This document shows, in pieces, positions 52,778 to 59,294 of a stretch of 64,000 nt of DNA. The notes under the pieces are model-generated. The model did not search any database. It saw nothing but the letters and a program-made list of their open reading frames with translations, and was not told where the DNA came from. Made by a program: the position numbers and the translations under genes. Source of the stretch: Aggregatilinea lenta (GTDB taxonomy: Bacteria > Chloroflexota > Anaerolineae > Aggregatilineales > Aggregatilineaceae). The stretch covers positions 186,001 through 250,000 of the forward strand of contig NZ_BFCB01000003.1 in NCBI RefSeq assembly GCF_003569045.1. The letters run 5' to 3'. Position 1 is the first letter of the stretch. Every line of letters starts with the position of its first letter.

Positions 52778-53329
52778 TTATGCGCCTGCCGAGGCGGCCT
52801 GCTCGCTTTCCTGCTTGACCAGTTCCAGCTCGATGTTGATCTTAATCTCGTCACCGACCAACACACCGCCGGTTTCCAGGCCCTGGTTCCAGGTGAGACC
52901 CCAGTCCTTGCGGTTGATCTTGGTGCTGGCGTTGAACCCGGCGCTGGTGGTGCCCCACGGGCTTTTCGCCTGGCCGACGTATTCGACGTCGAGCACGACG
53001 GGCTTGGTGACATTGCGCACGGTCAGGTTGCCGTACAGCTTGGCGGCATTGTCGCCAGTGCGCTCGACGCGCGTGCTGTCGAAGATCAGCTTCGGGTAGC
53101 TCTCGGCGTCGAGAAAGTCGGCGGAGCGCAGGTGCGTGTCGCGCTGATCCTGGCGCGTGTTGATGCTGGACGGATCGATCTCGACGTGAACGGTCGTGTT
53201 TTCCGGGTTGTTCTCGTCCAGATCGACGGTGCCTTCGAACTTGTCGAACATGCCGCGCACGTTCGAAATCATCATGTGGCGAACGGTGAACTGAATAGCC
53301 GAATGCGCGTTATCGATTTGCCAAGCCAT
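52778..53329 (-). CDS. YceI family protein (lipocalin-like)
   Basis: The 183-residue protein is the YceI fold: WQIDNAHSAIQFTVRHMMIS opens the barrel and GNLTVRNVTKPVVLDVEY is the central family motif. YceI proteins bind long polyisoprenoid or amphiphilic lipids such as quinone side chains, and many are exported, but this one has no signal peptide. It has a strong AGGAGG site. Its promoter overlaps a 22-bp palindrome, so it is likely controlled by the MarR regulator upstream. A quinone-binding role would fit the neighbouring quinone-stress genes. Confidence 0.88.
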   Translation of the reverse strand: MAWQIDNAHSAIQFTVRHMMISNVRGMFDKFEGTVDLDENNPENTTVHVEIDPSSINTRQDQRDTHLRSADFLDAESYPKLIFDSTRVERTGDNAAKLYGNLTVRNVTKPVVLDVEYVGQAKSPWGTTSAGFNASTKINRKDWGLTWNQGLETGGVLVGDEIKINIELELVKQESEQAASAGA

Positions 53330-53407: not shown

Positions 53408-53431
53408 TCAAAAAAAGAGTCTAGCACTCTT
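53408..53431. terminator. short hairpin with long T run at the end of the marR gene
   Basis: AAGAGT (53415-53420) / ACTCTT (53426-53431) with the stop codon in the loop. On the minus strand the stem is followed by seven T bases. Confidence 0.5.
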
Positions 53432-53894
53432 CTTTTTCTTTGCGCAGCGCCCGGTCCAGCTTGGCGAGCAAGACGAGCAGCGTTGCCTGTTCGGCGGGGT
53501 TCAGCACTTCCAGGCGGCTGTCAATGTGCGCTTCCAGTACGGGCGCGGCGGCGTCGAACGCGCATTCACCGGCGGGCGTCAGGTACAGGCGGTGCGTCCG
53601 GCGATCTTCGGGGTCGTCGCGCCGCTCGACAAATCCGGCGGTTTCCAGCCGGTCGATCAGCCCGGCGACGTTGCCCTTGGTGACCAGCAGCCGCCCGGCC
53701 AGCATTTGCTGGTTGAGGCCCGGCTCCGATGCCAGATGCGAGAGCACGTCGAACTGCGCCCCGGTCAGGCCGTATTCCGCCAACAGCGCCTGTTCGCCGC
53801 GCGAGATCCGCGAGTGGACACGGACCATGTGCAGCCAGCCGAGGATGCTGGTCCGGTATTGGCGAGCAACCTTGCGCTGCACTCTGTCGATCAT
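53421..53894 (-). CDS. MarR family transcriptional regulator
   Basis: The 157-residue winged-helix protein has the MarR layout: N- and C-terminal dimer helices and the central wing (GLIDRLETAGFVERRDDPEDRRTH in part). LNQQMLAGRLLVTKGNVAGL holds the recognition helix. The only Cys is the final residue, so a simple thiol switch of the OhrR type is unlikely unless that Cys serves. In Bacillus, MhqR of this family controls catE, mhqD, mhqO and reductase genes. The same gene types cluster here, so an MhqR-like role is inferred. Its own promoter overlaps an operator. Confidence 0.85.
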   Translation of the reverse strand: MIDRVQRKVARQYRTSILGWLHMVRVHSRISRGEQALLAEYGLTGAQFDVLSHLASEPGLNQQMLAGRLLVTKGNVAGLIDRLETAGFVERRDDPEDRRTHRLYLTPAGECAFDAAAPVLEAHIDSRLEVLNPAEQATLLVLLAKLDRALRKEKEEC

Positions 53895-54326: not shown

Positions 54327-54355
54327 TTGTCATCATGTTTAAGCTGTGTTACTGT
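54327..54355 (+). promoter_or_regulatory. promoter of the arg operon leader
   Basis: TTGTCA (54327-54332), 17 bp, TACTGT (54350-54355). Transcription would start near 54362, about 34 bases before the leader-peptide ATG. Confidence 0.55.
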
Positions 54356-54395
54356 AGAGCATCGGTGAATGAAAGCTTGATCGACCTAAACCGCC

Positions 54396-54470
54396 ATGAA
54401 CCTGCTTGCGAAGCGTCTCCCTCGTCGTCCGCGTGCTCGCCGTCCCGAAACATCAACGGGTCCGGCTTAG
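54396..54470 (+). CDS. arginine-rich leader peptide of the arg operon (proposed)
   Basis: A 24-codon frame from ATG 54396 to TAG 54468-54470. Arginine is at residues 7, 10, 11, 13, 15 and 16, six of ten codons, coded as five CGT and one CGC, and Lys is at residue 6. It lies between the arg promoter and a rho-independent terminator just before argC. The bases right after the Arg codons (54458-54465) can pair with the terminator's 5' side. This is the layout of trp/his/leu-type leader peptides. No strong Shine-Dalgarno is visible, which is the main weakness. I am not aware of an established bacterial arginine leader peptide of this type, so this is a proposal from sequence. Confidence 0.6.
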   Translation: MNLLAKRLPRRPRARRPETSTGPA

Positions 54471-54538
54471 TGGCGTTTGCAGCGAGAGACTGAATAACGA
54501 GCCTGCATAACCGCTCCCGGACCTGGGGGCGGTTTTTT
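54458..54538 (+). promoter_or_regulatory. transcription attenuator (antiterminator/terminator pair) before argC
   Basis: Terminator: CCGCTCCC (54511-54518) / GGGGGCGG (54525-54532), loop GGACCT, then TTTTTT (54533-54538). Antiterminator: GGGTCCGG (54458-54465) pairs with CCGGACCT (54517-54524) by seven Watson-Crick pairs and one G-U, taking the end of the terminator's 5' arm and its loop. A ribosome stalled on the Arg codons leaves 54458-54465 free; a ribosome at the stop codon covers it. CCCG/CGGG (54444-54447 and 54457-54460) could form a pause hairpin. Confidence 0.65.
54511..54538 (+). terminator. rho-independent terminator upstream of argC
   Basis: Eight-pair stem, extended by A-U pairs, directly followed by six T bases. 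It ends about 46 bases before the argC start, so it can only be an attenuator or end a short leader RNA. Confidence 0.8.
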
Positions 54539-54584
54539 GTTGTGGGGCACGCATGCGGCGGCCCCGGAAAGGCACACAGCGCGC

Positions 54585-55598
54585 ATGACCATTCATGCCG
54601 GCGTCTACGGCGCCACCGGCTACACCGGCCTGGAGCTGATCCGGCTGCTGGAGCGGCATCCCGACGTGGAGATCGCTTTCGCCACGTCTGAATCCAGCGC
54701 CGGACAAAGCCTGCGGCAAAGCTGGCCTCTCGCCCCGGACCTGACCCTCGTCGCTTCCGCCGATGCCCCGCTCGACGCCGTACAGACCGTCTTCCTCTGC
54801 CTGCCCCATACCAAATCCGCCCCCATCGCCGCCAAAGCGCTCGCGTTGGGCGTGCGTGTGGTCGACCTGTCGGCGGACCTGCGCCTGGACGATCCGGCGG
54901 TGTTCGAGAAATGGTACAAAGTCACGCATCCCGCGCCGGAGTTGCTGCCGGTTCCCTATGGCCTGCCGGAATTGGGCCGTGACGCGCTGCACGGCGCGCA
55001 GGCCATCGCCAACCCCGGCTGCTACGCGACGGCGACGCTGCTGGGTACGGCGCCGCTGGCCCGCTGCGGGCTGCTGGCGCAGGGCGCGCCGGTCATCGTG
55101 GATGCCAAGTCGGGCGTGTCGGGCGCGGGGCGCACCCCCAAGCTGGGCAACCTGTTCGCGGAAGTGCACGGCAACTTCTCGCCCTATAACATCGGGCGGG
55201 CGCACCGGCACATCCCTGAGATCGAGCAGGTGCTGGCCGCGCAGGGGCAGAGTGGCTACGGCCCGCTGGTCTTTTCGCCGCACCTGCTGCCTACCGACCG
55301 GGGCATCATTGCCACGATTTACGCCCAGGTGACGGACGCGGGTGCGGTGCGCAGTGCGTTCGAGTCGATTTTCGCCGGGGAGCCGCTGGTGAGCGTGCTG
55401 CCCCCCGGCGAGCTGGCGATGCTGCGCCACGTGGTGAACACGCCCTACGCGGCGCTGTCGATCACGCCGGTCAGCGACACGATGGTGATCGTCGTTTCGG
55501 CGCTGGATAACCTGCTAAAAGGTGCGGCGTCGCAGGCCGTGCAGAACTTCAACCTGATGTGGGATCTGCCCGAAACCGCCGGGCTGCTGCCGCTGTAG
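54585..55598 (+). CDS. argC: N-acetyl-gamma-glutamyl-phosphate reductase
   Basis: The 337-residue protein has an N-terminal NADP-binding Rossmann loop (GATGYTG) and the active-site Cys146 in NPGCYATA; GRAHRHIPEIEQ supplies the conserved histidine. It reduces N-acetylglutamyl phosphate to the semialdehyde, the third step of arginine synthesis. The ATG at 54585 is preferred because GATGYTG follows directly. It is the first gene of argCBDAJ, behind the attenuator. argF, argG and argH are not in the window. Confidence 0.95.
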   Translation: MTIHAGVYGATGYTGLELIRLLERHPDVEIAFATSESSAGQSLRQSWPLAPDLTLVASADAPLDAVQTVFLCLPHTKSAPIAAKALALGVRVVDLSADLRLDDPAVFEKWYKVTHPAPELLPVPYGLPELGRDALHGAQAIANPGCYATATLLGTAPLARCGLLAQGAPVIVDAKSGVSGAGRTPKLGNLFAEVHGNFSPYNIGRAHRHIPEIEQVLAAQGQSGYGPLVFSPHLLPTDRGIIATIYAQVTDAGAVRSAFESIFAGEPLVSVLPPGELAMLRHVVNTPYAALSITPVSDTMVIVVSALDNLLKGAASQAVQNFNLMWDLPETAGLLPL

Positions 55599-55637: not shown

Positions 55638-56384
55638 ATGAGTCTTTCCCCTATCGTGATTAAGGTCGGCGGCAATGACCTCGACCAGCCGGGCTTCATC
55701 GACGGGCTGGCGCAGGCGGTGGCCGCGCTGCAACAGCAGATGCCGTGCATCGTGGTGCACGGCGGCGGGCGGGCGATCAACCAGCTTCAGGAGCGGCTCG
55801 GTTTGCAGCCCCAGTACCACAACGGGCAGCGCGTCACCGACAACGCCGCGCTGGAAGTCGCCGAGATGGTGCTGTCGGGCAATGTCAACAAGCAGATCGT
55901 CGCGGCGCTGCTGGCGGCGGGCGTGGATGCGCTCGGACTGAGCGGGGTGGATCGCGGGCTGCTGCACGTCGAACCGTGGTCGCCGGAAATGGGGCGCGTG
56001 GGGCGGATCATCGCCGTGCGCGCGGACGTACTGGCGAACCTGTGCGAACAGGGCATCACCCCGGTCGTCTCCCCGATCTCACTGGGCGCGGACGGGCACT
56101 ATAACGTCAATGCCGATCACGCCGCCGGGTCGATTGCCGCCGCACTGCGCGCAGCCTACGCGACCTTCGTGACCAACGTGCCCGGCGTGCAGGTGGACGG
56201 GCAGGTCGCGCCCGCGCTGACGGTAACGGAAGCACACGCGCTCATCGAGCGCGGCGTGATCACGGGCGGGATGATCCCCAAGGTCAACGCGGCGCTGGCG
56301 GCCATTACCAGCGGTGTGCAAAAAGCAGTCATCACCAATTTGCCGGGGCTGTCGGCTGGGACCGGCACGGTATTCGTGGCATAG
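55638..56384 (+). CDS. argB: acetylglutamate kinase
   Basis: A 248-residue amino-acid kinase. KVGGNDLDQPGF is the ATP phosphate loop (KxGG), HGGGRAINQL the next glycine block and NVNADHAAGSIAAAL the nucleotide region. GMIPKVNAALAAI near the end is the conserved lysine segment. It phosphorylates N-acetylglutamate. Its short length lacks the N-terminal helix of arginine-inhibited hexameric enzymes, so it is probably a non-allosteric dimer; feedback would then act elsewhere, such as the attenuator. It is 39 bp downstream of argC. Confidence 0.93.
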   Translation: MSLSPIVIKVGGNDLDQPGFIDGLAQAVAALQQQMPCIVVHGGGRAINQLQERLGLQPQYHNGQRVTDNAALEVAEMVLSGNVNKQIVAALLAAGVDALGLSGVDRGLLHVEPWSPEMGRVGRIIAVRADVLANLCEQGITPVVSPISLGADGHYNVNADHAAGSIAAALRAAYATFVTNVPGVQVDGQVAPALTVTEAHALIERGVITGGMIPKVNAALAAITSGVQKAVITNLPGLSAGTGTVFVA

Positions 56385-56399
56385 GGAGACACAGAACTC

Positions 56400-57602
56400 A
56401 TGTCGTTGAGCGTTGCCGAAAAAACAAAACAGTACGTGTTGGGAACCTACGCGCGCGCGCCGTTCGTGTTGGATCGCGGCGAAGGGATGTATGTGGTTGA
56501 CGACGCAGGCAACCGCTACCTCGACTTCGCGTCGGGGATCAGCGTGAACGCGCTCGGTCAATGCGACGCGGGCATTACGGCGGCGGCGCACGAGCAGTTC
56601 CAGAGGCTCGGCCACGTCAGCAACCTGTATTATTCCGCGCCCCAGGCCGATCTGGCCGAAGCCCTGTGCCAAAGCAGCTTCGCGGACAAGGTCTACCTGG
56701 CGAATTCGGGTACTGAGGCCGTCGAGGCCGCGATCAAGTTCGCCCGCAAAGTCGCTTACACCCGCTACGGTCCCGGTCAAAAAACCGGGATCGTAGCGTT
56801 TACGGGCGCGTTCCACGGGCGCACGATGGGATCGTTGGCGATGACCCCGCGCGAAAAGTACCAGAAGGCGTTCCGCCCGCTGCTGCCGGACGTGCAGATC
56901 GCGCCGTTCAACGACGTGGACGCGATCGCGGAATTCGTCACGGACGCGACGTGCGCCGTGTTCGTCGAGCCGATCCAGGGCGAGGGTGGCATCAACCCCG
57001 CCTCGCCGGAATTCTTGCAGGCGCTGCGTGACGTCTGCGACCGGGTCGGCGCGTTGCTGGTCTTCGACGAGATCCAGTGCGGCATGGGCCGCACCGGCAC
57101 GCTGTGGGCCTACGAGCAGACCAGGGTCGTGCCGGACATGCTGACCACGGCCAAGGCGCTCGGCAGCGGGCTGCCCATCGGCGCGGTGCTGATGACGGAC
57201 GCCGTGGCGGGCGTGATGGGCGTGGGCGATCACGGCAGCACCTTCGCGGGCGGGCCGGTGATCTGCCGCGTCGCGGAAGCGACCGTCAAGCGCATCAGCG
57301 ATCCGGCGATGCTGGCGCACGTCAAGGAGATGGGCGCGCTGCTGGTCGAGCGGCTGAACGAGCTGAACTCGCCGCACGTGGTCGAGGTGCGCGGGCGTGG
57401 GCTGATGGTCGGCGTGGAGTTCGATATGGACGTAACGCCGCTGATCCAGGCGAGCTACCAGCACGGGCTGATCTTGATCAACGCCGGGCCGCAGGTGCTG
57501 CGCCTGCTGCCGCCGCTGATCGTGGAGCCGGAACACATCGACGCTTTGATCGACGGCCTGACCTCGATGTTAGCGGAGCTGCCGGAGGGCACTGCTGCAT
57601 GA
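56400..57602 (+). CDS. argD: acetylornithine aminotransferase
   Basis: The 400-residue fold-type I aminotransferase binds PLP at Lys252 (TTAKALGSG). VFVEPIQGEGGINPA and LVFDEIQCGMGRTG are the PLP-contact motifs of the ArgD family. It converts N-acetylglutamate semialdehyde to N-acetylornithine with glutamate as donor. It may also serve in lysine synthesis (DapC activity), as known for E. coli ArgD; lysA lies at 7635. Its stop overlaps the argA start as ATGA. Confidence 0.94.
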   Translation: MSLSVAEKTKQYVLGTYARAPFVLDRGEGMYVVDDAGNRYLDFASGISVNALGQCDAGITAAAHEQFQRLGHVSNLYYSAPQADLAEALCQSSFADKVYLANSGTEAVEAAIKFARKVAYTRYGPGQKTGIVAFTGAFHGRTMGSLAMTPREKYQKAFRPLLPDVQIAPFNDVDAIAEFVTDATCAVFVEPIQGEGGINPASPEFLQALRDVCDRVGALLVFDEIQCGMGRTGTLWAYEQTRVVPDMLTTAKALGSGLPIGAVLMTDAVAGVMGVGDHGSTFAGGPVICRVAEATVKRISDPAMLAHVKEMGALLVERLNELNSPHVVEVRGRGLMVGVEFDMDVTPLIQASYQHGLILINAGPQVLRLLPPLIVEPEHIDALIDGLTSMLAELPEGTAA

Positions 57603-58108
57603 TCGTTCGTCACCCTTTTGCAGACGAAGTGGACGCCATCCGCGCCTTGTTCGAAGACGAAGTGCGCGCCGGACGCATGCTGCCCCGCACGCCGGAGAGC
57701 ATCCTCGCCAGCCTGGACGATTGGCTTGTGGTCGAGATCGACGGGCAGATCGTTGGATGCGTGTCGCTGGTACTGTTCAACGCGGTACTGTGTGAAATCC
57801 GCTCGCTGGCGGTGCACCCGGCCTTTCGGGGCAACGGTATCGCGGTCGAGCTGGTGCGCGCCGCCTCAGCGATGGCGTACGACCGGGGCATCCAGCGGGT
57901 GCTGACCCTGACGCGCGCGCCGCGCGTGTTCGAAAAGGTGGGTTATCACCGCGACTTTGTGGCGAACTTCCCCGATAAAGTTTGGCGCGACTGCACGCCG
58001 TGCCCTTTCCGCATGGCCTGCGACGAGATCGCGCTGATTTACGATTTGACAATACCGGAACACGCGGAGGTGCTCACGCCCTATCGTGAGGGGGTGTTTT
58101 GTGTCTAA
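57599..58108 (+). CDS. argA: GNAT-type N-acetylglutamate synthase (short ArgA)
   Basis: A 169-residue GNAT acetyltransferase. LAVHPAFRGNGIAVELV is the acetyl-CoA motif A (R/Q-x-x-G-x-G/A). FEKVGYHRDFVANFPDKVW and the CTPCPFRMACDE Cys cluster are marks of the short, kinase-less ArgA class. It makes N-acetylglutamate from glutamate. It starts in an ATGA overlap with argD and ends inside argJ, so the three are translationally coupled. With a bifunctional ArgJ, its role would be to prime the acetyl cycle. Confidence 0.9.
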   Translation: MIVRHPFADEVDAIRALFEDEVRAGRMLPRTPESILASLDDWLVVEIDGQIVGCVSLVLFNAVLCEIRSLAVHPAFRGNGIAVELVRAASAMAYDRGIQRVLTLTRAPRVFEKVGYHRDFVANFPDKVWRDCTPCPFRMACDEIALIYDLTIPEHAEVLTPYREGVFCV

Positions 58109-59294
58109 CGAAGTGCACACCGTAACAGGTTTCACACTCGCCGGGACGCACAGCGGCCTGAAGCCCGAAGACCGGCCCGACATGGCGCTGGTCGTCAGCG
58201 ATCGCCCCTGCGTGGCGGCGGGTATCTTTACCACCAACCGCGTCAAGGCCGCGCCCGTGCTCTACGACCAGGGCGTGCTGGCCACGCGGGACGCGGCGAT
58301 CCGCGCCGTGCTGGTCAACACGGGCAGCGCCAACGCCTGCACCGGGGATGCTGGCCTGGAGAACGCGCGCCAGAGCGCGATCTGGGCGGCGGAGGCGGTC
58401 GGCTGCGCGGCGCACGAAGTGCTGGTGCTCTCGACCGGCGTGATCGGCCTGCCGCTGCCGATGGACTGCATTGAGCGCGGGATCGAGGCACTGCGCGGGC
58501 AGTTGAAGCCGACCGCGTGGCAGGACGCGGCCCGCGCGATCATGACCACCGACACGCGCCCGAAGGTCGCCAGCACGCGCGCGCCGGAGGGTTACACCAT
58601 CACCGGTATCGCCAAGGGCGCAGGCATGATCGCGCCCAACATGGCGACTATGCTCTCTGTGATCGTTACCGATGCGCAGGTTCCGCGCGACCTGCTCGAT
58701 CGCGTGCTGCGGCAGGCGGCGGATGCCAGCTTCAACCGCATCGTGGTCGATGGCGATATGAGCACCAACGATACCGTGCTGGCGCTGGCAAACGGCGCGT
58801 CGGGGATCGCGGTGCAAGACGAGGCTGCGTTTGTCGCCGCGCTGAGCGAGGTTACTATCGCGCTGGCGCAGGCCATCGTGCGCGACGGCGAAGGCGCGAC
58901 CAGGTTCGTGACGGTGCAGATCACCGGCGCGGCCAGTGAGGACGCGGCGCAGGCCGTAGCGCGCTCGATCGCGACGTCGGCGCTGGTCAAGACCGCGTTT
59001 TACGGCGGCGATCCCAACTGGGGCCGCATCCTGTGCGCGGCGGGTTATTCCAGCGCGGAGATCAATCCCGCGACGGTCTCGCTGTGGCTGCTGCACGCCG
59101 ACGGAACCGACGCGATCCAGCTCGTCGAAGGTGGACAGCCGCTGAACTACGACGAACCGGCGGCCATCGCGCACATGCAGGCTGACGAGTGGGGCGTGCG
59201 GCTGGACCTGGGCCAGGGCGACGCGTCCACGTGGGTCTGGACCTGCGATCTCAGCCACGAATACGTGACCATCAACGGGCATTACCGCACGTAA
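58101..59294 (+). CDS. argJ: glutamate N-acetyltransferase / amino-acid acetyltransferase
   Basis: The 397-residue proenzyme cuts itself before Thr183 (NMATML) to give alpha and beta chains; KGAGMIAPNMATML is the family signature. It moves acetyl from N-acetylornithine to glutamate, which closes the cyclic arginine pathway, and bifunctional forms also use acetyl-CoA. The GTG at 58101 is chosen because GAGGGGG lies about seven bases upstream, overlapping the argA end by eight bases. The operon ends here at a strong terminator. Confidence 0.94.
   Translation: MSNEVHTVTGFTLAGTHSGLKPEDRPDMALVVSDRPCVAAGIFTTNRVKAAPVLYDQGVLATRDAAIRAVLVNTGSANACTGDAGLENARQSAIWAAEAVGCAAHEVLVLSTGVIGLPLPMDCIERGIEALRGQLKPTAWQDAARAIMTTDTRPKVASTRAPEGYTITGIAKGAGMIAPNMATMLSVIVTDAQVPRDLLDRVLRQAADASFNRIVVDGDMSTNDTVLALANGASGIAVQDEAAFVAALSEVTIALAQAIVRDGEGATRFVTVQITGAASEDAAQAVARSIATSALVKTAFYGGDPNWGRILCAAGYSSAEINPATVSLWLLHADGTDAIQLVEGGQPLNYDEPAAIAHMQADEWGVRLDLGQGDASTWVWTCDLSHEYVTINGHYRT

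Follow-up and report, generated by a model that had tools for sequence, protein, structure and literature searches.

A putative arginine-specific leader peptide attenuator upstream of argC in Aggregatilinea lenta and related Chloroflexota

Introduction

The DNA upstream of the argCBDAJ operon of Aggregatilinea lenta raises the question of whether arginine synthesis in this organism is controlled by a leader peptide whose Arg codons are read by the ribosome. Bacterial arginine biosynthesis is taught as a repressor (ArgR) system, and the examples of leader peptide attenuators are the trp, his, leu, and phe operons of Proteobacteria. In attenuators of this kind, a stalled ribosome frees an antiterminator that overlaps a terminator arm, as set out in the relevant passages of PMC3766115. 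Leader peptides were known from Proteobacteria and Actinobacteria when Firmicutes were added, according to the account in PMC2965389, and in its passages on Actinobacteria PMC1262725 gives no conserved RNA structure upstream of the arginine operons. Among the matches listed from open-access full texts (a body of literature that leaves most subscription papers outside), none reported an arginine leader peptide attenuator of an arg operon, and none reported one in Chloroflexota. The argC leader was analyzed within a 64,000-nucleotide stretch of contig NZ_BFCB01000003.1 (the window), together with argC upstream regions of relatives.

Results

Anatomy of the argC leader

An initial annotation, made from the letters of the window, had described a 24-codon frame with six Arg codons at positions 7–16, an antiterminator just after these codons, and a rho-independent terminator whose 5′ arm and loop pair with the antiterminator. 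Direct reading and a terminator scan confirmed each of these elements (Table 1). The frame opens with the ATG at 54396–54398, closes with the TAG at 54468–54470, and encodes MNLLAKRLPRRPRARRPETSTGPA; its Arg codons are codons 7, 10, 11, 13, 15, and 16. The antiterminator core GGGTCCGG (54458–54465) adjoins the leader stop codon. Its partner is the terminator 5′ arm and loop (54511–54523), with GGTCCGG (54459–54465) pairing with CCGGACC (54517–54523) and AGTGG (54469–54473) pairing with CCGCT (54511–54515). The terminator stem spans 54509–54534 and is followed by a T-tail that reaches 54538; one terminator-like site was found in the scanned region, against a mean of 0.4 in shuffles. A strict combination of at least six Arg codons in ten, a terminator of −18 or better, and an antiterminator duplex of −20 kcal/mol or better was reached by 2 of 20,000 dinucleotide shuffles of this locus. 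The computational fold that the initial annotation had proposed was also run: the whole leader was as stable as its shuffles (z 0.01), a result that says little about a switch.

Table 1. Features of the argC locus in the window (positions are those of the window).
Feature	Position	Strand	Basis
YceI-like gene	52778–53329	−	match under NCBIfam cut-off
MarR-like gene	53421–53894	−	match under NCBIfam cut-off
Promoter-like site TTGTCA-17-TACTGT, TGT right before −10	54327–54355	+	score 9.0, spacing 17
Leader peptide frame, 24 codons	54396–54470	+	direct reading; recurrence and controls in relatives
Arg codon cluster (control codons)	54414–54443	+	direct reading; in relatives, Arg by far the commonest cluster among eight tabulated amino acids
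Possible protector (1:2) hairpin CCCG...CGGG, would mask part of the antiterminator	54444–54460	+	folds; similar hairpins in relatives
Antiterminator segment (2), GGTCCGG and AGTGG, overlaps leader stop codon	54458–54473	+	pairing; relatives
Intrinsic terminator (3:4)	54509–54538	+	terminator scan; compensatory stem changes among 16 relatives
argC, N-acetyl-gamma-glutamyl-phosphate reductase	54585–55598	+	TIGR01850 344.7 bits, cut-off 233.6
argB, acetylglutamate kinase	55638–56384	+	TIGR00761 210.6 bits, cut-off 151.3
argD, acetylornithine transaminase family	56400–57602	+	TIGR00707 475.1 bits, cut-off 410.05
GNAT N-acetyltransferase, short, ArgA-like	57599–58108	+	best NF005840 133.8 bits, under cut-off 154
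argJ	58086–59294 (scanned as 58107–59291)	+	NF003802 490.3 bits, cut-off 351

Four of the five operon proteins scored above their NCBIfam cut-offs, the GNAT protein being the exception. The nearest recognizable genes upstream, MarR-like and YceI-like, lie on the minus strand, so that no upstream gene appears to depend on the terminator; mechanical open frames are present on the plus strand as well.

The promoter that the initial annotation had placed at 54327–54355 stood as a promoter-like site, while a strict promoter scan of the region returned 0 sites. Before the leaders of relatives, promoter-like sites scoring at least 9 were found in 93 of 111 cases by a search that carried no shuffle control. 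By eye, the leader in the window has no clear Shine–Dalgarno sequence, a weakness already named in the initial annotation. In 90 relatives, a promoter-like site was accompanied by an in-frame start codon; in 27 of these, the first such codon (ATG, GTG, or TTG) fell at most 5 nt past the predicted transcription start (the same search, again free of a shuffle control). Leaderless translation of the leader peptide is therefore possible in these 27 relatives, and the poor Shine–Dalgarno sequence is less damaging than first thought. Seven leaders (L110, L119, L215, L216, L219, L225, and L228) have their start codon within a few bases of the predicted transcription start, in some cases as judged by eye; this position suggests leaderless translation there.

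Recurrence in relatives

An ArgC match was obtained from 92 of 101 genomes, A. lenta included, and 79 upstream sequences were taken from these genomes (78 from argC and one from a paralogue). A further 80 came from named Chloroflexota records, these being the best 80 of 434 relatives. Removal of near-duplicates by shared 40-mers reduced the 159 sequences to 120 non-redundant upstreams, among which the paralogue (L079) and one sequence with runs of N (L163) were kept. A full module required an open frame with at least four Arg codons in ten and, 25–150 nt downstream, a terminator of at least −12 kcal/mol in strength, together with an antiterminator duplex of −12 kcal/mol or better.

The full module was found in 95 of the 120 argC upstreams, compared with 1 of 120 reverse complements and 71 of 3,600 shuffles. 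Twenty amino acids were scanned and eight tabulated; among those tabulated, the runner-up to Arg was Ser, with 17 of 120. By source, and with L079 set aside, the module was present in 62 of 74 sequences of the order-level set and in 33 of 45 of the named set. An alignment of related Chloroflexota had been suggested in the initial annotation, with a terminator kept in relatives that had lost the Arg-rich frame named as the pattern that would speak against an attenuator; instead, frame, terminator, and pairing occurred together in these 95 upstreams. The other 25 fell under the cut-offs. Some of them look like the same module below threshold, and in at least five (L021, L069, L075, L128, and L130) the module was not visible by eye in the argC upstream. 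Two of these, L069 and L075, belong to genus g40 and have an argC upstream without an Arg leader; in L069, complementary CCCGGCC and GGCCGGG occupy the place of the Arg leader.

From a phylum draw of 201 genomes, 89 argC loci were surveyed. Of these, 29 were the best matches outside the genome of the window, and 60 were picked by hand from the listed matches with ArgR genomes deliberately included, so that the sample is not random. The module cut-offs were reached by 16 of the 89 loci, and 11 were judged convincing: L214–L219, L222, L224, L225, L227, and L228 (L217 and L218 from the table only). Five others, L234, L268, L283, L293, and L300, were judged chance, also from the table only. The leader peptides of L220 and L221 are identical to that of L216, and the script picked a different terminator in them. 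Taken together, these loci place the module in four families that belong to the class but not to the order (f10, f11, f15, and f18) and in two that lie beyond the class (f37 and f62).

Co-variation of the pairing partners

Co-variation of the partners, which the initial annotation had also put forward as a check, was observed between lineages. All antiterminators were combined computationally with all terminator arms for the 102 of the 120 sequences that had at least four Arg codons and a terminator of −12 or better. The antiterminator/terminator-arm duplex averaged −17.6 kcal/mol for cognate and −13.7 kcal/mol for non-cognate pairs, and the cognate preference had a permutation z of −14.2 over the 102 sequences and −5.6 over 20 lineages that shared no 7-mer in the arm. 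The cognate arm ranked at a median of 12 of 102, in part an effect of arms shared among close relatives, and it outscored 95 percent of the arms from other lineages in only 41 percent of sequences. These comparisons support an antiterminator that is exclusive with the terminator and is maintained by co-variation between lineages.

Within families, two sets were used: 16 sequences from the family of the window and its neighbor, and 29 sequences from a second group. The antiterminator is nearly invariant within a family, and as a consequence its co-variation there was not beyond shuffles (reached by 96 of 500 and 144 of 500 shuffles). The terminator stem of the 16 sequences carried compensatory changes in 18 cells, reached by 0 of 500 shuffles. 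For the protector hairpin between the Arg codons and the antiterminator, 77.9 percent of cells were paired, 53 of 500 shuffles reached its co-variation score, and a version slid by +1 scored slightly higher. Its z was +0.3 in the window and below −1.5 in 3 of 16 sequences; the hairpin is plausible but not proven.

Computed folds by ribosome position

Folds were computed with the leading edge of the ribosome set 13 nt past the first base of the A-site codon, a setting based on the +13 toeprints given in PMC13009471. In total, 111 leaders were folded: the 102 sequences above and nine phylum loci chosen by hand (L217 and L218 were omitted as near copies). The terminator 5′ arm was captured by upstream RNA with a mean probability of 0.64 when the ribosome occupied a middle Arg codon. 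This value fell to 0.19 for a ribosome at the stop codon; in the window the two values were 0.79 and 0.07. The difference exceeded 0.2 in 98 of 111 leaders and exceeded 0.05 in the wrong direction in 3 of 111, and part of it arises because less RNA is free when the ribosome is at the stop codon. Shuffling the intervening RNA lowered capture from 0.64 to 0.43, and in 94 of 102 leaders the real value lay above the average for shuffles of that leader. With no ribosome, the antiterminator still formed, at 0.47 on average.

At equilibrium, the completed terminator had a mean probability of 0.79 for a stall at a middle Arg codon and 0.97 at the stop. Because the completed terminator usually wins at equilibrium, the choice in most relatives must precede transcription of the 3′ arm; in attenuators, the decision falls before the 3′ arm of the terminator is made. 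In these models, a stall at the control codons would free the antiterminator, and a ribosome at the stop codon would cover it.

Codon usage and other operons

The 102 leaders contained 512 Arg codons, of which 437 were CGC or CGT and 35 were AGG. Most clusters use CGC and CGT, and 10 of the 102 leaders have two or more AGA or AGG codons in the cluster. Across the seven codons up to RRP in 11 family leaders, differences numbered 38, 58, and 189 at codon positions 1, 2, and 3, respectively; these leaders, which did not include that of the window, were chosen for the RRP ending, a choice that favors third positions somewhat. Both codon patterns count in favor of an attenuator.

Arg-rich argG leaders with a terminator were found in three other families of the order (L175, L178, and L179) and in a further genome (L328). 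Of the 14 argG loci surveyed, L166, L178, and L179 reached the cut-offs of the script; L166, from the family of the window, was judged chance by eye, and L175 was missed by the script (antiterminator −6.9) and recognized as an Arg leader by eye. The argG gene of A. lenta lacks an Arg leader. No convincing Arg leader was seen before carA (seven loci) or before genes for the PF02729 carbamoyltransferase domain (24 loci); L192, from these loci, reached the cut-offs and was judged chance. For L182, L186, L187, L197, L204, and L211, also among them, the upstream piece came from the wrong place, close to a contig end. At 27 leuA loci, where a stretch of about 500 nt at a guessed offset was examined per locus, neither an Arg or Leu module nor any other of note was found. 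Module matches before trpE (23 loci) were rejected as leaders because the one locus tested, that of A. lenta, has a T-box (L370:1026–1336, RF00230, 93 bits, exactly the gathering score). The genome of the window thus seems to contain two different sensors of tRNA charging for different amino acids.

A covariance model of 16 argC leaders was run against 41 genomes, with filter settings under which weak matches are lost. It matched the genome of the window once, at argC, and also matched hisG in two other genomes, where the leader has six His codons followed by an antiterminator and terminator of the same type. Another match (L326, G008 contig 128) had no visible leader and was judged chance. 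At a loose cut-off of at least three codons in ten, the 30 hisG loci gave His in 20, Ala in 14, Ser in 13, and Arg in 12; since Ala, Ser, and Arg are also frequent, the hisG case rests on leaders read by eye. By eye, many of the 30 loci have a His-rich leader with a terminator and an antiterminator before hisG. These include A. lenta itself (L332, G000 contig 1), with the leader MNVQAQFHAHHHGITPG, and additionally L330, L331, L342, L345, L347, L351, and L358. The ATG of the L332 leader lies a few bases past a −10-like TATACT. Which amino acid is sensed thus seems to depend on the operon, arginine before arg genes and histidine before hisG, and control codons that follow the pathway favor codon reading over an arginine-binding peptide.

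Distribution of ArgR

Neither ArgR domain was found in the genome of the window by searches that were positive in 9 of 14 control genomes for the N-terminal domain (PF01316) and in 8 of 14 for the C-terminal domain (PF02863). Weak PF01316 matches occurred in 11 of 101 relatives (best 31.3 bits); six were above the cut-off, in open frames of 106–112 aa, and these matches probably belong to other winged-helix proteins. In the phylum draw, PF02863 was present in 43 of 201 genomes, and in 0 of the 25 genomes listed as belonging to the same class as A. lenta. In the non-random survey, 0 of 16 argC upstreams from ArgR genomes reached the module cut-offs, compared with 16 of the 73 other upstreams, 11 of them convincing.

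Discussion

The argC leader is very probably an arginine-specific, ribosome-mediated transcription attenuator. The basis is the layout of the leader, its repeated occurrence among relatives, pairing partners that co-vary between lineages, and the folds computed for each ribosome position. Attenuation of the trp/his/leu type with arginine as the sensed amino acid, the central claim of the initial annotation, is supported by the module in 95 of 120 upstreams and by partner co-variation between lineages. Transcription is predicted to start near 54362, and a ribosome would translate the 24-codon leader. When charged tRNA-Arg is scarce, the ribosome would stall at the Arg codons and leave 54459–54473 free to pair with the terminator 5′ arm, so that RNA polymerase would continue into argCBDAJ. 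When charged tRNA-Arg is ample, the ribosome would reach the stop codon at 54468 and cover the antiterminator, and the terminator would form; the predicted leader RNA measures roughly 175 nt. We infer the response to arginine from this arrangement.

A different sensor that could use the same leader is the nascent peptide itself, which might sense free arginine in the exit tunnel and arrest the ribosome, in the manner of the fungal arginine attenuator peptide, whose arrest occurs at its stop codon. The motifs RRPRRRP (eight leaders) and RRSRRP (16 leaders) recur, fungi have arginine-responsive peptides of this type (in the passages of PMC11550727 that treat them), and a peptide that halted the ribosome at the stop codon when arginine is plentiful would cover the antiterminator and so have the right sign. 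Arrest inside the Arg cluster, however, would have the wrong sign, the peptides vary widely between lineages outside the cluster, and His-rich hisG leaders of the same plan in the same genomes fit codon reading; a peptide sensor is accordingly considered improbable.

It is still less probable that the hairpin is simply a terminator and that the Arg-rich frame arose as a side effect of GC-rich sequence. The looser cut-offs applied to relatives were indeed reached by 752 of 20,000 dinucleotide shuffles of the window locus, but the module is far commoner in real upstreams (95 of 120) than in shuffled ones (71 of 3,600), a co-directional upstream gene that would need the terminator seems to be absent, and the terminator arm prefers its own partner. 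Control of the operon by another RNA sensor (a T-box or an unknown riboswitch) or by a DNA-binding repressor is rated just as slight a chance. The T-box before trpE shows that another type of tRNA-sensing leader is present in the genome; against such control here, Rfam gave no match at cut-off (the best chance match in the leader scored 17.4 bits against a cut-off of 55), the T-box covariance model had no match in the window, and neither ArgR domain was found in the genome.

An arginine-specific attenuator of this kind shares with the trp, his, leu, and phe attenuators of Proteobacteria a leader rich in codons for the end product, a terminator before the first gene, and an antiterminator that overlaps the terminator arm and would be freed by a stalled ribosome; it differs from them in the amino acid, the phylum, the possibly leaderless start in some relatives, and the absence of an Rfam match. 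T-boxes differ from the argC leader in that they bind tRNA directly, without a leader peptide. The feature in common with arginine T-boxes is control of arginine genes by tRNA at the RNA level (PMC1262725). The ilvBNC attenuator of Corynebacterium glutamicum likewise has three exclusive hairpins, namely terminator, antiterminator, and anti-antiterminator, as outlined in PMC11857589, but responds to branched-chain amino acids in an actinobacterium; for ilvBNC, the reference list of PMC11550727 includes a title announcing evidence that a leader forms in the absence of a ribosome binding site. In the Salmonella speF leader orf34, pausing at two consecutive Arg codons alters the RNA fold. In the description given by the relevant passages of PMC6386406, orf34 differs in that its action involves Rho, RNase G, and the accessibility of the ribosome binding site in front of a polyamine gene, without an intrinsic terminator and outside arginine biosynthesis. 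The rbfL leader of Staphylococcus aureus is also short, contains Arg codons, and senses arginine shortage, but it acts by blocking a ribosome binding site, without transcription attenuation, and concerns a biofilm regulator (as described in the corresponding part of PMC13009471). For carA of Pseudomonas, the relevant part of PMC4997734 gives a leader peptide in P. aeruginosa and predicted attenuation in P. syringae; an Arg-codon switch is not described in that part, and these organisms are proteobacteria. The logic of the argC leader is thus classical; within the literature covered, arginine as the amino acid and Chloroflexota as the phylum are new.

We regard it as moderately likely that leader peptide attenuation is the main control of arginine synthesis in Anaerolineae and in part of the other Chloroflexota, where it would replace ArgR, and that it forms a general system in which arg and his operons follow one plan with the codons exchanged. 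If this is true, arginine would join the biosynthetic operons under leader peptide attenuation, and the mechanism would be extended to Chloroflexota. The phylum would also offer a testable case of one type of control replacing another, and a function would be given to small reading frames that lack annotation in genomes for which metagenomes are the main source.
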